From Chloroflexota bacterium (GTDB taxonomy: Bacteria; Chloroflexota; Dehalococcoidia; Lucifugimonadales; G022566795), in the NCBI GenBank assembly GCA_022566795.1, contig JADFIF010000012.1, positions 1-35,856 on the forward strand: a stretch of DNA of 35,856 nt. The letters are read 5' to 3'. A program made the translations under genes and the position numbers. Below the pieces are notes generated by a model. That model did not search any database. It worked only from the letters and a program-made list of their open reading frames with translations, and had not been told where the DNA came from. This document shows positions 998 through 13,731 of this stretch, piece by piece; within the stretch, counting starts at the first letter, position 1, and each line of letters opens with the position of its first letter.

Positions 998-1273
998 ATG
1001 GTTTCTCGCTTGCTCGGGCTGTTCAAGCGCGGTGACGAAGACCCCGATTGCCATGAGGTCCGCGGCGTCTCATCGGATTACATAGACAGTGATCTCGACC
1101 ACGCTTCGGAGGAAAGGGTCAGGAAGCACCTGGAGTGGTGCGGGCCTTGCAACGCCTTCATTAGCACCCTTCGATCGACGGTGAGCATGCTACGCTCGTT
1201 GCCCAAGGGTGAGGCATCGGAGTCGTTTCGTGAACGAGTTCGCGAGGCCGTCAAGAACGAGGGCGACGACTAG
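998..1273 (+). CDS. Putative zinc-finger (zf-HC2 type) anti-sigma factor
   Basis: This 91-residue protein resembles ZAS-type anti-sigma factors, which bind and silence an ECF sigma factor. Visible metal ligands are Cys18/His19 and the hallmark H-x3-C-x2-C at His44, Cys48 and Cys51, in KHLEWCGPC. Between them is the typical amphipathic helix with YIDSDLDHASEERV. No transmembrane helix follows, so it should be a soluble cytoplasmic form. I chose the ATG at 998 because CCGGAG lies about 6 bases upstream; a GTG at 929 in the same frame is possible but adds a low-complexity tail. It is divergent from the sigma gene, whereas such pairs normally share an operon. Confidence 0.75.
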   Translation: MVSRLLGLFKRGDEDPDCHEVRGVSSDYIDSDLDHASEERVRKHLEWCGPCNAFISTLRSTVSMLRSLPKGEASESFRERVREAVKNEGDD

Positions 1274-1276
1274 GAC

Positions 1277-1449
1277 TTAGGAGCTATTCTCAAAGGGGCA
1301 AAGCCTTGTTCCCACCGCCCGCCGATAGGGTTTTTGGCTCCTGGGAGGCGCGTCCCTTCGGCAGGCTCAGGGCAGGGCTCCCCAGACCCCTTGCCAGAGG
1401 GGTTAACCCCTCTGGACTCCCCCGACGGAATTTTGAGATAGTTTCTTAG
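1277..1449. repeat. Non-coding inverted-repeat element (MITE-like), about 173 bp
   Basis: The ends form imperfect inverted repeats: 1277-1294 (ending CTATTCTCAAA) and 1431-1448 (starting TTTTGAGATAG). Inside is a perfect 22-bp palindrome at 1394-1415 centred on GTTAAC, and a CTTCGGCAGGCTCAGGGC motif of the kind common in dispersed intergenic repeats. No coding potential is seen. The element begins four bases after the anti-sigma stop codon. Confidence 0.5.
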
Positions 1450-1667
1450 TCAGCAAGAAAGCGATACGTACTTTTTCCCACCCGCCCGCCCGTGAGGAAT
1501 TTTGGTCTGGGGGCTTAGCCCCTCGGAGCCCGTTCGACGGTGGTCGGGCAGGATGTATCAAGACTCATGCAACCAAGCACTAGGTTGGCCACCGCGTAGC
1601 GGCGCACCACCGATGCCCCCGCGCTACTCCGCCCGGCGATGGCCGACGGGCCATCGGATAGCACCTC
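1450..1667. other. Intergenic stretch with a second repeat-like hairpin
   Basis: I see no gene here. The segment GGGGC-TTA-GCCCC at 1510-1522, preceded by GAGGAATTTTGG, resembles the right part of the preceding inverted-repeat element and may be a degraded partial copy. No convincing promoter for the downstream etf gene was found. Confidence 0.35.
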
Positions 1668-7787: not shown

Positions 7788-9038
7788 CTACTCGTCGCCT
7801 CGGGTCGAGTTGCCCTCGTCCAGAATCTTCTTGACCTTGCCCGCAAACTCCAGGACCTGCTCGGTGTCGGGCACGCCCTCGCGCTCGAGCCTCTGCTTGA
7901 ACTGCTCGAAGAGCCAGTCCTCTTTTCGACCGTGAGGAATGTCGAAGAACGCGCGGTCGAAGTGCGGGAGCTGGCCGGGACCGAAGTACCCCTTGTCGCT
8001 GAGGGAGTACCCCTCCAGGTTATCGGTGCCCTTGCCGAGCACCTCGCCCGTCTCGACGTAGTGCTCCATGACCGGCTTCATGCCGTAGCGCTGCACCGGG
8101 CAGACCTTCATGCACACGGCGCAGCCCTCGTAACGGGCCATGACGGGCCGGCACCGCTCGTAGATGAGCTTGTTCTTCTCGGCGCCGCGCCACCAGACCT
8201 TCTGCTTCTCGAGGGCGCGACCCGGGCACCGGTTTACGCAGACCTGGCACTTCTGGCAGAAGTTGTGGATGCCGTAGTCGATCGGGGAGTCGTAGGTCAC
8301 CGGGCCGTCGGTGGTGATTATCATCAGCCGGGCACGAGAGCCGAAGTGGGGCGACAGGAGCTGCCCGTTGGCGCCGAGCTGCCCGAGGCCCGCCGCCACG
8401 AACATGGGTATGTAGGCGGCGCTATTGTCGTTGGGGCTGTGAATCTGAGCGTGGTAGCCGAGACCCCGAATGTACTCGGCCAGCTCCAGGGCGAGGGCGC
8501 CCTCCGTTTCGTAGGTGCCGAAGTGGGCGAACTCCGCCTCCAGGCTGGGGATGGTCTGGGTCTGGGTGTAGTCTTGCTCAAGGGCAATGCAGATGGCGTG
8601 CTCGTACTTGACCCAGTGCTTCTTGCTTACGTAGGTGTACCTGCGGTTGTATCTGGTGAAGCCGACCTCGCCGAATCCCAACTCGCGGGCCTTCTGGCGA
8701 ACGTCTTCGGTGATGTTCTTGCCGACGACGGGTTCGGCGGTGGGCTCCAGGTCGCCGGAGTAAGATGCGGCGTGTACGAGGGGCTCGTTCCGCTCGTCGT
8801 GCTCCTCGCGGTACTTGAAGACCTCCTCGCTGTAGACGGTCCAGACCCACTCGCGATCGGCGGCCTTCTCGATGTTCTGCGTCTCGAGGGGGTACACCCT
8901 GCTGTAGAATGCGACGTCGTCCTCTCTCTGAGGAATCCCCGGGACCGTGGCGAGGTCCTCTGCAACGGGGATCTCGACATCCGGCTCGTCGAGAGTCCGC
9001 CCGGGCCGCTTTACGACATGGTGTACTGCCTTAGGCAT
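7788..9038 (-). CDS. Reductive-dehalogenase-like / QueG-related 4Fe-4S protein without Tat signal
   Basis: This 416-residue protein has the C-terminal double ferredoxin motif of the reductive dehalogenase (RdhA) superfamily: C-x2-C-x2-C-x3-CP at Cys261, 264, 267 and 271 (NFCQKCQVCVNRCPGRAL), and a second set at Cys296, 306, 309 and 313 (GCAVCMKVCPVQRYG). Before it is the corrinoid-binding-type region, with ALELAEYIRGLGYHAQIHSP, then FVAAGLGQLGANGQLLSPHFGSR and DSPIDYGIHN, which read like RdhA. It lacks a twin-arginine signal and no rdhB anchor is nearby, so it should be cytoplasmic. The ATG at 9038 has GGAGGG eight bases upstream. It could be a catabolic dehalogenase, another corrinoid reductase or a QueG-like enzyme; substrate is unknown. 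Confidence 0.75.
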   Translation of the reverse strand: MPKAVHHVVKRPGRTLDEPDVEIPVAEDLATVPGIPQREDDVAFYSRVYPLETQNIEKAADREWVWTVYSEEVFKYREEHDERNEPLVHAASYSGDLEPTAEPVVGKNITEDVRQKARELGFGEVGFTRYNRRYTYVSKKHWVKYEHAICIALEQDYTQTQTIPSLEAEFAHFGTYETEGALALELAEYIRGLGYHAQIHSPNDNSAAYIPMFVAAGLGQLGANGQLLSPHFGSRARLMIITTDGPVTYDSPIDYGIHNFCQKCQVCVNRCPGRALEKQKVWWRGAEKNKLIYERCRPVMARYEGCAVCMKVCPVQRYGMKPVMEHYVETGEVLGKGTDNLEGYSLSDKGYFGPGQLPHFDRAFFDIPHGRKEDWLFEQFKQRLEREGVPDTEQVLEFAGKVKKILDEGNSTRGDE

Positions 9039-9158
9039 GATTATGTCCCTCCAGCAATGATTGGGCGCCGGGGCCGAGTGTATCGTCAATGCCGCAGCCA
9101 AGTCAAGAGAAATGCTGCATGTATTGCGTTTCACCTTTTGGGATGCATCTCTGGGATG

Positions 9159-11455: not shown

Positions 11456-12115
11456 ATGCCGTTGACAGACCGGCTTCGCGCACGGCATCATGGCCTATGG
11501 CAGAAGGTAGTGGCCCATCCCTTCGTCGAGGAGATGGGCGATGGCACGCTGCCCACCGAGAAGTTTCGGGCCTACTTTGTCCAGGATTACATCTTTGTGC
11601 GCGACCTGGTATCGCTGGTAGCGCTGGGAGTGTCGAAGGCGCCGGACCCGGATGCGGCCGGCCGCCTGAACCGGTTCTTGGCCGGCATCCTGGACCCCGA
11701 GAACGATCTCTTCGTGCGGGCTTTCGGCGCCCTGGGTGTTCCGAAGGAGGTATACGCCTCGGCGCCCGCGACTCCGACCACAAGGGCGTTCGGCGACTTC
11801 TTGGTGCGCGTGGGTCATGAGGGCCGGTTCGAGGAGATCGTTACGGCGCTGTACGTCACCGAGGGCACCTACCTCGATTGGGGGACGCGGCTTGGGGCGG
11901 ACCGTTCGCCTCGGAACGCGGTCTACCAAGAGTGGGTAGACATCCACGGCCCCGCGGTGCTGGGCGAGCTGGTCCGCTGGATGGGGACTGTCGTGGACGG
12001 CGCCGAATCCAAAGGGACCTCGGGCAGGATAGACGATGTCTTCCTGACGGCTCTGCGGTATGAGTACCTCTTTTTCGAGTCGGCCTACCGCGGCGAGAGC
12101 TGGCCGGACGAGTGA
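11456..12115 (+). CDS. tenA: TenA-family aminopyrimidine hydrolase (thiaminase II), cysteine-free type
   Basis: TenA proteins hydrolyse degraded thiamine pyrimidines to HMP for reuse. The 219-residue sequence shows HPFVEEMGDGTLP, FRAYFVQDYIFV (with the substrate-binding Asp), and a C-terminal RYEYLFFESAY carrying the conserved Glu. There is no cysteine anywhere in the protein, so the nucleophile of classical TenA_C enzymes is missing; this places it with the TenA_E type, described as hydrolysing amino- and formylamino-HMP without that cysteine. The start has CCGGAG about nine bases upstream. thiD follows after a small ORF on the same strand, which supports a pyrimidine-salvage unit. Confidence 0.88.
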   Translation: MPLTDRLRARHHGLWQKVVAHPFVEEMGDGTLPTEKFRAYFVQDYIFVRDLVSLVALGVSKAPDPDAAGRLNRFLAGILDPENDLFVRAFGALGVPKEVYASAPATPTTRAFGDFLVRVGHEGRFEEIVTALYVTEGTYLDWGTRLGADRSPRNAVYQEWVDIHGPAVLGELVRWMGTVVDGAESKGTSGRIDDVFLTALRYEYLFFESAYRGESWPDE

Positions 12116-12124
12116 GCCGATGCC

Positions 12125-12277
12125 ATGAGCGAAGAGGATACCAAGGGCGAACGTCGGGAGGCGAAGCGACGGAAACGCCGCAGCATGCGGGTCGTAGGCC
12201 GGAGCGTAAGGATCTTGCAGGACATCATCCGCCGCAAAGCTCTACGGGCGGGGAAAGAGGGCGGCCGACACCCATGA
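12125..12277 (+). CDS. Small, strongly basic ORF (50 residues), unknown
   Basis: The frame encodes 50 residues beginning MSEEDTKGERREAKRRKRRS, followed by MRVVGRSVRILQDIIRRKAL. More than a third of residues are Lys or Arg, so it could bind nucleic acid or ribosomes. It sits 9 bp after tenA and 19 bp before thiD, as if part of that operon. There is no clear ribosome site, but translation could be coupled to tenA. I do not recognise the family; a chance ORF is possible. Confidence 0.4.
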   Translation: MSEEDTKGERREAKRRKRRSMRVVGRSVRILQDIIRRKALRAGKEGGRHP

Positions 12278-12296
12278 CGATGGCGACGAGGCCTGG

Positions 12297-13100
12297 ATGA
12301 GATCGGTTCGACGAGCCATGACCATCGCCGGCTCCGACTCGGGAGCGGGCGCCGGGATTCAGGCGGACCTGAAGACCTTCGCCGCCTTTGGCGTGTACGG
12401 GACGTCGGTGGTCACGGCCATTACGGCGCAGAACACCCAGCGGGTGACGGACGTCCTCGAGTTGCCGGCCACTCTCATCGCCTCGCAGATCGACGCGATA
12501 GTAAGCGACATAGGCACCGATGCGGTGAAGACCGGAATGCTGTCGTCCTCCGCCATCATCGACGCCGTGGTCGACAAGCTTCGGGAGTACCGCCTGGCTA
12601 ACGTGGTGGTCGACCCGGTAATGGTGGCGAAGAGCGGCGACAAGCTGCTTCAGGACGAGGCGGTTGAGGCGCTGCGCACACGGTTGATCCCCCTGGCGGC
12701 CGTGGTCACTCCCAATATTCCAGAGGCCCAGGTGCTGACCGGCCGGAAGGTCGAATCTCTGGACGACGCGCGGACCGCAGCCGGGGAGCTGGTGCGCATG
12801 GGCGCTAGGGTCGCGGTGGTCAAGGGGGGGCATCTCCAGGGTCCGGCGACGGACATCATGTACGACGGCAGGGAGTTCAGGGCCTTCACCCACCAGCGCA
12901 TAGCCACTACAAGCACCCACGGCACCGGGTGCACCTTCGCCTCCGCCGTGGCCGCGGGACTAGCGCGGGGGACTCCGGTTCGCGATGCCGTATCGCAGGC
13001 CAAGACCTACGTAACGGCCGCGATCCGCAACGCCTTTCCCATGGGCAAGGGGCACGGCCCTCTGAATCACTTCTACGCTACCTGGGAGCGGGAAGACTAG
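12297..13100 (+). CDS. thiD: Hydroxymethylpyrimidine/phosphomethylpyrimidine kinase ThiD
   Basis: ThiD phosphorylates HMP and then HMP-P to HMP-PP for thiamine phosphate synthesis. The 267-residue protein is of the ribokinase fold: AMTIAGSDSGAGAGIQADLK at the start, VVTAITAQNTQ, VVDPVMVAKSGDKLL, TPNIPEAQVLTG, and the C-terminal anion-hole motif GTGCTF (from residue 209) followed by ASAVAAGLARG. The ATG at 12297 has GAGG five bases upstream. It follows tenA and a small ORF. Its TAG stop codon lies inside the left end of a MITE-like repeat. Confidence 0.95.
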   Translation: MRSVRRAMTIAGSDSGAGAGIQADLKTFAAFGVYGTSVVTAITAQNTQRVTDVLELPATLIASQIDAIVSDIGTDAVKTGMLSSSAIIDAVVDKLREYRLANVVVDPVMVAKSGDKLLQDEAVEALRTRLIPLAAVVTPNIPEAQVLTGRKVESLDDARTAAGELVRMGARVAVVKGGHLQGPATDIMYDGREFRAFTHQRIATTSTHGTGCTFASAVAAGLARGTPVRDAVSQAKTYVTAAIRNAFPMGKGHGPLNHFYATWERED

Positions 13101-13302: not shown

Positions 13303-13665
13303 CTAGAAGGTTATGACGCGATCGTACTCCGCGTGAGCGTTGGCGCCATCGACAGGGGTTCCGAATCGGGCGTTCTTGCCTGCCAGGTCCTGTTCCGTGA
13401 CCCCACGGGCACGGGCACAGAGGCCTCAGACCGTTATCGGGACTTCATTCGCGACGAGGAACTCCACCAGCTCCGTCAAAGGCGCTATGCCCACGCCGTG
13501 AACCTGCTGGGCGATATGGTCCTTTATCAGCGGCGCCGCCTCTCCCATGAGGATGAGGCCCGTCTCGTGTCCTCCCTCGATGGCCCCCTTGGCCATAAGG
13601 AAAGGAAAGGTAGCCTGGGTCGGGTCGTCGGTGCCGCGGGTGCCTATGTACAGAAGCTTGGCCAT
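13303..13665 (-). CDS. DsrE-family protein with in-frame UGA: probable selenoprotein (Sec80-x-x-Cys83)
   Basis: The protein starts MAKLLYIGTRGTDDPTQATF, with ALMG-type DsrE/F features (AIEGGHETGLILMGEAA, then VHGVGIAPLTELVEFL). The frame meets TGA at 13428-13426 directly after VPITV, then continues in the same frame with GLCARARGVTEQDLAGKNAR and closes with AEYDRVITF and TAG at 13305-13303. Read through, it is 120 residues, a normal DsrE-like length, and the UGA falls where this protein type is expected to carry a redox Cys of a C-x-x-C motif. A SECIS-like hairpin follows (separate entry). The ATG at 13665 has GGAGGG six bases upstream and a TTGACA-18-TACTAT promoter. A nonsense-truncated 79-residue protein is the alternative. 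The molecular role is unknown; DsrE relatives handle sulfur or thiol redox. Confidence 0.72.
13390..13420 (-). promoter_or_regulatory. SECIS-like hairpin after the in-frame UGA
   Basis: The upper stem CCGUG/CACGG encloses a GGGU loop (13395-13408); a lower CUGU/ACAG stem closes it. The loop begins 22 nt after the UGA and starts with G, matching the described bacterial SECIS rules (loop about 16-37 nt from UGA, a G among its first two bases). The structure was judged by eye, without energy calculation. Confidence 0.6.
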
Positions 13666-13701
13666 GTATCCCTCCATGAGTGGTTAGCAGCGATCGCGGC
13701 G

Positions 13702-13731
13702 ATAGTAGGCCATACTTATGCGACGTGTCAA
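13702..13731 (-). promoter_or_regulatory. Sigma-70-type promoter for the DsrE-family gene
   Basis: TTGACA (13731-13726) and TACTAT (13707-13702) are separated by 18 bp on the minus strand, about 37 bases before the start codon. Confidence 0.65.

Follow-up and report, generated by a model that had tools for sequence, protein, structure and literature searches.

The stretch of DNA analysed here (the window, 35,856 nucleotides from a Chloroflexota bacterium) carries on its minus strand a DsrE-like gene at 13303–13665, which comprises 120 codons and a TAG. The frame runs from an ATG at 13665 to the TAG at 13303 and its single interruption is a TGA at 13428–13426 (codon 80; 13426–13428 on the minus strand), a codon that probably specifies selenocysteine, to judge from the presence of tRNA-Sec, SelA, SelB and SelD and of UGA in relatives. 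An earlier note had described this TGA as following VPITV, with 40 further codons to the TAG and a Sec-x-x-Cys motif, and the frame re-reads in the same way. The read-through product is MAKLLYIGTRGTDDPTQATFPFLMAKGAIEGGHETGLILMGEAAPLIKDHIAQQVHGVGIAPLTELVEFLVANEVPITV-U-GLCARARGVTEQDLAGKNARFGTPVDGANAHAEYDRVITF; codons 80–83 give Sec-Gly-Leu-Cys (U-G-L-C), in which Cys83, the UxxC partner of Sec80, is encoded by the TGT at 13417–13419 (minus strand). A ribosome site, GGAGGG, lies before the ATG at 13665, as the note had said, and the sigma-70-like promoter that it had proposed, TTGACA-18-TACTAT, is found at 13731–13702 on the minus strand (13702–13731), where it is a consensus match only (10/12 positions; the scan gave 2 sites vs 0.2 in shuffles). 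The expected truncated product of 79 residues is correct from the ATG at 13665, but a gene caller may instead pick the ATG at 13677, giving 83 residues up to the UGA; a standard annotation would therefore report a stump of 79–83 residues. The genes flanking the DsrE gene in the window (thiD and an MFS transporter) give no functional hint.

Two other regions of the window should be mentioned. At 11456–13100 (plus strand), a TENA/THI-4 family gene is followed by phosphomethylpyrimidine kinase (thiD), so that these thiamine genes are convergent on the DsrE gene. A protein of 448 residues is encoded at 7788–9134 (minus strand). It matches no Pfam family at 1e-5, its cysteines form clusters of the Fe-S type (CQKCQVCVNRCP), and we take it to resemble a relative of the reductive dehalogenases.

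The Pfam DsrE family (PF02635) matches residues 3–120 of the product, and hence extends across the UGA (E 3e-13; 50.4 bits vs a gathering score of 22.7); no NCBIfam model scores above its cut-off. AlphaFold predicts one confident domain for the 120 residues, with a mean pLDDT of 96.3 and all residues at 90 or above. The best structural relatives of this model are YchN (1jx7), DsrEFH (2hy5), TusBCD (2d1p) and other DsrE proteins, and in a profile alignment Sec80-x-x-Cys83 falls on the C-x-x-C of YchN.

UGA is present at codon 80 in 36 genes, that of the window included, which are distributed over families and classes across the phylum. Close relatives among these have 74% identity, and others form a graded series below 45%. 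One gene occurs in two collections (L009 and L012, the latter from the window's order). The earlier note had proposed a check of homologs at position 80: they keep UGA or Cys there, the alignment reaches the end of the protein, and the 40 codons 3' of the UGA are conserved in the relatives rather than degenerate. More distant homologs have CxxC at the Sec80 site, and the partner Cys83 of the UxxC or CxxC motif is conserved; among plasmid sequences, the matches are to DsrE proteins in which Ser or Cys occupies the Sec80 site. A close natural Cys variant, L054 (G408:C10:7479-7838), has TGC at codon 80 and Ser in place of Cys83. The loop of its hairpin is UCG instead of GUG, the leading G being lost, and selB was not found in its genome (G408, 76% complete).

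The hairpin in question lies directly past the UGA. In the window it has the form CCGUG-CCC-[GUG]-GGG-(U)-CACGG (13395–13414, minus strand), with its loop at 13406–13404, 19 nt past the UGA, an 8-bp stem, one bulged U and an energy of -12.3 kcal/mol. The earlier note was right that a hairpin exists past the UGA. The GGGU loop that it gave is slightly misplaced, because both the comparative support and the minimum-energy fold of the region give GUG, closed by CCC/GGG. The published rules for bacterial SECIS elements are a loop of 3–9 nt, an upper stem of 4–16 bp, a distance of 16–37 nt from the UGA, a G in the first two loop positions and an energy of -7.5 kcal/mol or lower (PMC13188914), and the hairpin of the window conforms to them. 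Its folding-energy z is -0.65 for 64 nt and -1.99 for 22 nt, and folding energy alone is weak evidence; the conservation of the hairpin across relatives exceeds chance. Nearly all the Sec-DsrE genes have [N]GCCC-GUG-GGGU[N] directly past the UGA, and RNAalifold, applied unaided to 33 sequences, returns exactly a 5-bp stem with a GUG triloop. Within this core, 97% of cells are paired vs 88% in shuffles, and slid versions of the hairpin are 34–71% paired. The covariation score is 0.176 vs 0.060 in shuffles, a value reached by 0/500 of them, and 18 genes have G-C as the outer pair, 12 having C-G. Rfam gave chance-level matches only in the gene region.

The same constraint can be seen in codon choice. 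Arg87 is CGT in 33/36 Sec-DsrE genes (background elsewhere in the same genes, 8.3%) and Gly88 is GGG in 34/36 (background 21%), while the wobble base of Val89 matches base 85.3 in 33/34. In L103 and L104 the C-G pair at 86.3/88.3 is replaced by U-A, both sites being synonymous. The non-Sec CxxC homologs differ at the hairpin codons, with Gly as GGC, GGG, GGT or GGA and Arg mostly as CGC. On the protein tree there are approximately eight changes of the outer pair; the independent pairs are concordant, and only four lie on well supported branches, too few for the tree-corrected sign test to reach significance. Of the Val89 sequences, only the window copy has a mismatch (U-C) at the outermost covarying pair, and it forms the longer stem with the bulged U instead. 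Because the outer stem varies between relatives in register and bulges, the claim made here is limited to the five core pairs.

The genes on whose presence the earlier note had made its reading depend (selA, selB, selD and tRNA-Sec) are all in the genome above family cut-offs: tRNA-Sec scores 70.4 bits, with the anticodon given as tca by ARAGORN, and selB, selA and selD score 342.7, 548.2 and 385.2 bits, respectively. The selD gene (L047, G000:C113:4309-5229) has an in-frame UGA of its own ('SCAGUASKF'), presumably at the usual Sec/Cys site of SelD, and a 9-bp hairpin 33 nt past it. The triloop of this hairpin is GUG, as in that of DsrE, which would be expected if a single SelB reads both. At two other sites of the genome CCCGUGGGGU follows a UGA; inspection of the sequence past the UGA showed no likeness to selenoprotein genes. 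Among 17 genomes (that of the window, 15 further Sec-DsrE genomes and that of the Cys variant), selB is present in 14; the three genomes with no match are 63–76% complete, and include the Sec-DsrE genomes G026 (74%) and G201 (63%).

Taken together, the frame, conservation, hairpin covariation, decoding genes and predicted fold indicate that selenocysteine is almost certainly inserted in the cell, and we put the probability of such decoding at codon 80 at approximately 95%. The insertion proposed in the earlier note is thus supported by the Sec genes of the genome and by UGA or Cys at position 80 in homologs. It might be argued that translation does stop at the UGA, or that the UGA reflects a sequencing or assembly error in a Cys gene, and that a truncated or decayed gene has been observed. 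The assembly is indeed a draft (189 contigs, 85% complete) and the folding energy is by itself unremarkable, but over 30 genomes, from different families and classes, have UGA at the same codon, 40 conserved codons with frozen synonymous sites follow it, and the genome has the complete Sec machinery; we consider this very improbable. That the UGA is read as some other residue, through a Trp code or non-specific read-through, is more improbable still: although the frame would be open under any sense reading, homologs lacking the UGA have Cys there, the UGA lies within a UxxC motif, the SECIS-type hairpin that accompanies it is conserved, and the genome has a full Sec system.

With decoding as selenocysteine, the gene would encode a 120-residue protein of the DsrE/YchN type, SelB and Sec-tRNA-Sec decoding the UGA under the direction of the hairpin downstream. 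In DsrE, Cys78 carries sulfur, and the equivalent Cys is essential in TusD (PMC3397948). Sec80 would occupy this catalytic position, with the selenol as the reactive group and Cys83 as the partner that resolves it. The protein would then most likely act in selenol/thiol redox chemistry or as a sulfane-sulfur carrier, cycling via a Sec80–Cys83 selenenylsulfide; both this chemistry and the partner of the protein are weakly inferred, and the cargo may be either electrons or sulfane sulfur/selenium.

Some indication of function comes from relatives of the gene. In G049 (L011:863-2684, minus strand), the DsrE gene lies between MduS-like and ArsM-like methyltransferases, each with a frame that extends beyond an in-frame UGA, so that as many as three Sec genes may be consecutive. 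A Sec-ArsM-like gene adjoins DsrE in G585 (L082:1976-2605, plus strand), and in G119 (L022, about 1250–1500, plus strand) one has a degenerate stretch of DsrE next to it; the contexts of the ArsM-like UGA across these three loci are 'GUIAGAL' and 'RUIGGAL'. These neighbours hint at metalloid or selenium handling. Such adjacency is not mentioned for DsrE-like selenoproteins in PMC1088965, PMC2398784 or PMC13188914, and the link provides a lead to their function. Compatible with Sec decoding is the view that Sec80 is purely redox-active (thiol-disulfide/selenenylsulfide), in arsenic or other metalloid handling, and takes no part in sulfur transfer. The conserved Cys83 partner speaks for it, as does the proximity of the gene or its remnant to Sec-ArsM-like methyltransferases in three genomes and to an MduS-like one in G049; on the other hand, the fold and the active-site position are of the sulfurtransferase type, and the window copy has neither ArsM-like nor MduS-like neighbours. 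We would give this view somewhat less than an even chance.

Three relatives have UGA-N6-UGA, i.e. Sec-x-x-Sec: L013:1738-1785 (plus strand), L015:1576-1623 (minus strand) and L056:1738-1785 (plus strand). They belong to three genera and are near each other in the tree, which makes a sequencing error unlikely. In these genes no more than 10 nt separate the second UGA from the conserved hairpin, less than the 16–37 nt of the rules, and for this reason a second SECIS element is proposed. A candidate, ACCGACCA-GGAYU-UGGYYGGU, has its loop 26 nt past the second UGA and is confined to L013, L015 and L056, with 7, 8 and 6 of 8 pairs, respectively (others have five or fewer); L015 has an A-U pair where L013 and L056 have A and C, a mismatch. 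When the peptides are recoded at random with synonymous codons, the observed pair counts are reached in ~2–17% of trials per gene, and the three genes are related, so that the evidence is suggestive only (n = 3). It is possible, and we suggest it tentatively, that this group evolved Sec-x-x-Sec together with a tandem second hairpin that decodes the second UGA. If so, this would be a natural case of bacteria using two SECIS elements to decode selenocysteines that lie close together. A scan of the phylum for exact occurrences of UGA-N6-UGA with the hairpin gave no match, and no further UxxU genes were found by an order-wide profile search or in the viral contigs searched. Other selenoprotein families of bacteria are known to include UxxU; for DsrE, the published tables list UxxC only (PMC1088965, PMC2398784, PMC13188914). 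The relatives therefore provide, besides a well-defined SECIS core common to genes across the phylum, natural material for comparison: genes with UxxC, genes with UxxU, and one in which Cys replaces Sec and the hairpin loop lacks the leading G. This makes the decoding of two neighbouring Sec codons in bacteria directly testable.

It remains to compare the gene with known systems. DsrE of DsrEFH and TusD of TusBCD have the fold in common with it, and the catalytic Cys78 lies near the position of Sec80 (PMC3397948); they are, in contrast, parts of three-subunit sulfur relays, whereas the window gene has no adjacent DsrF/DsrH or TusC/TusB. E. coli YchN (1jx7) has the same fold (TM 0.77), with CxxC at the same place as UxxC, but it has Cys for Sec and 22% identity in the structural alignment. 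The closest likeness is to the DsrE-like UxxC selenoproteins described since 2005, from the Sargasso Sea (PMC1088965) and as 'DsrE 2' in the GOS study of 2008 (PMC2398784), in agreement with the earlier note, which had placed such proteins in marine metagenomes. A 2026 review gives them as one-Sec UxxC proteins (PMC13188914). As in the window gene, they belong to PF02635, have one Sec in UxxC with a SECIS element directly downstream, and come from environmental bacteria (PMC1088965, PMC2398784, PMC13188914). The window gene is a further DsrE-like selenoprotein, of a family already known; compared by description, it differs in coming from Chloroflexota and from a genome with the decoding machinery, and three of its relatives have UxxU, whereas the published proteins have UxxC only.
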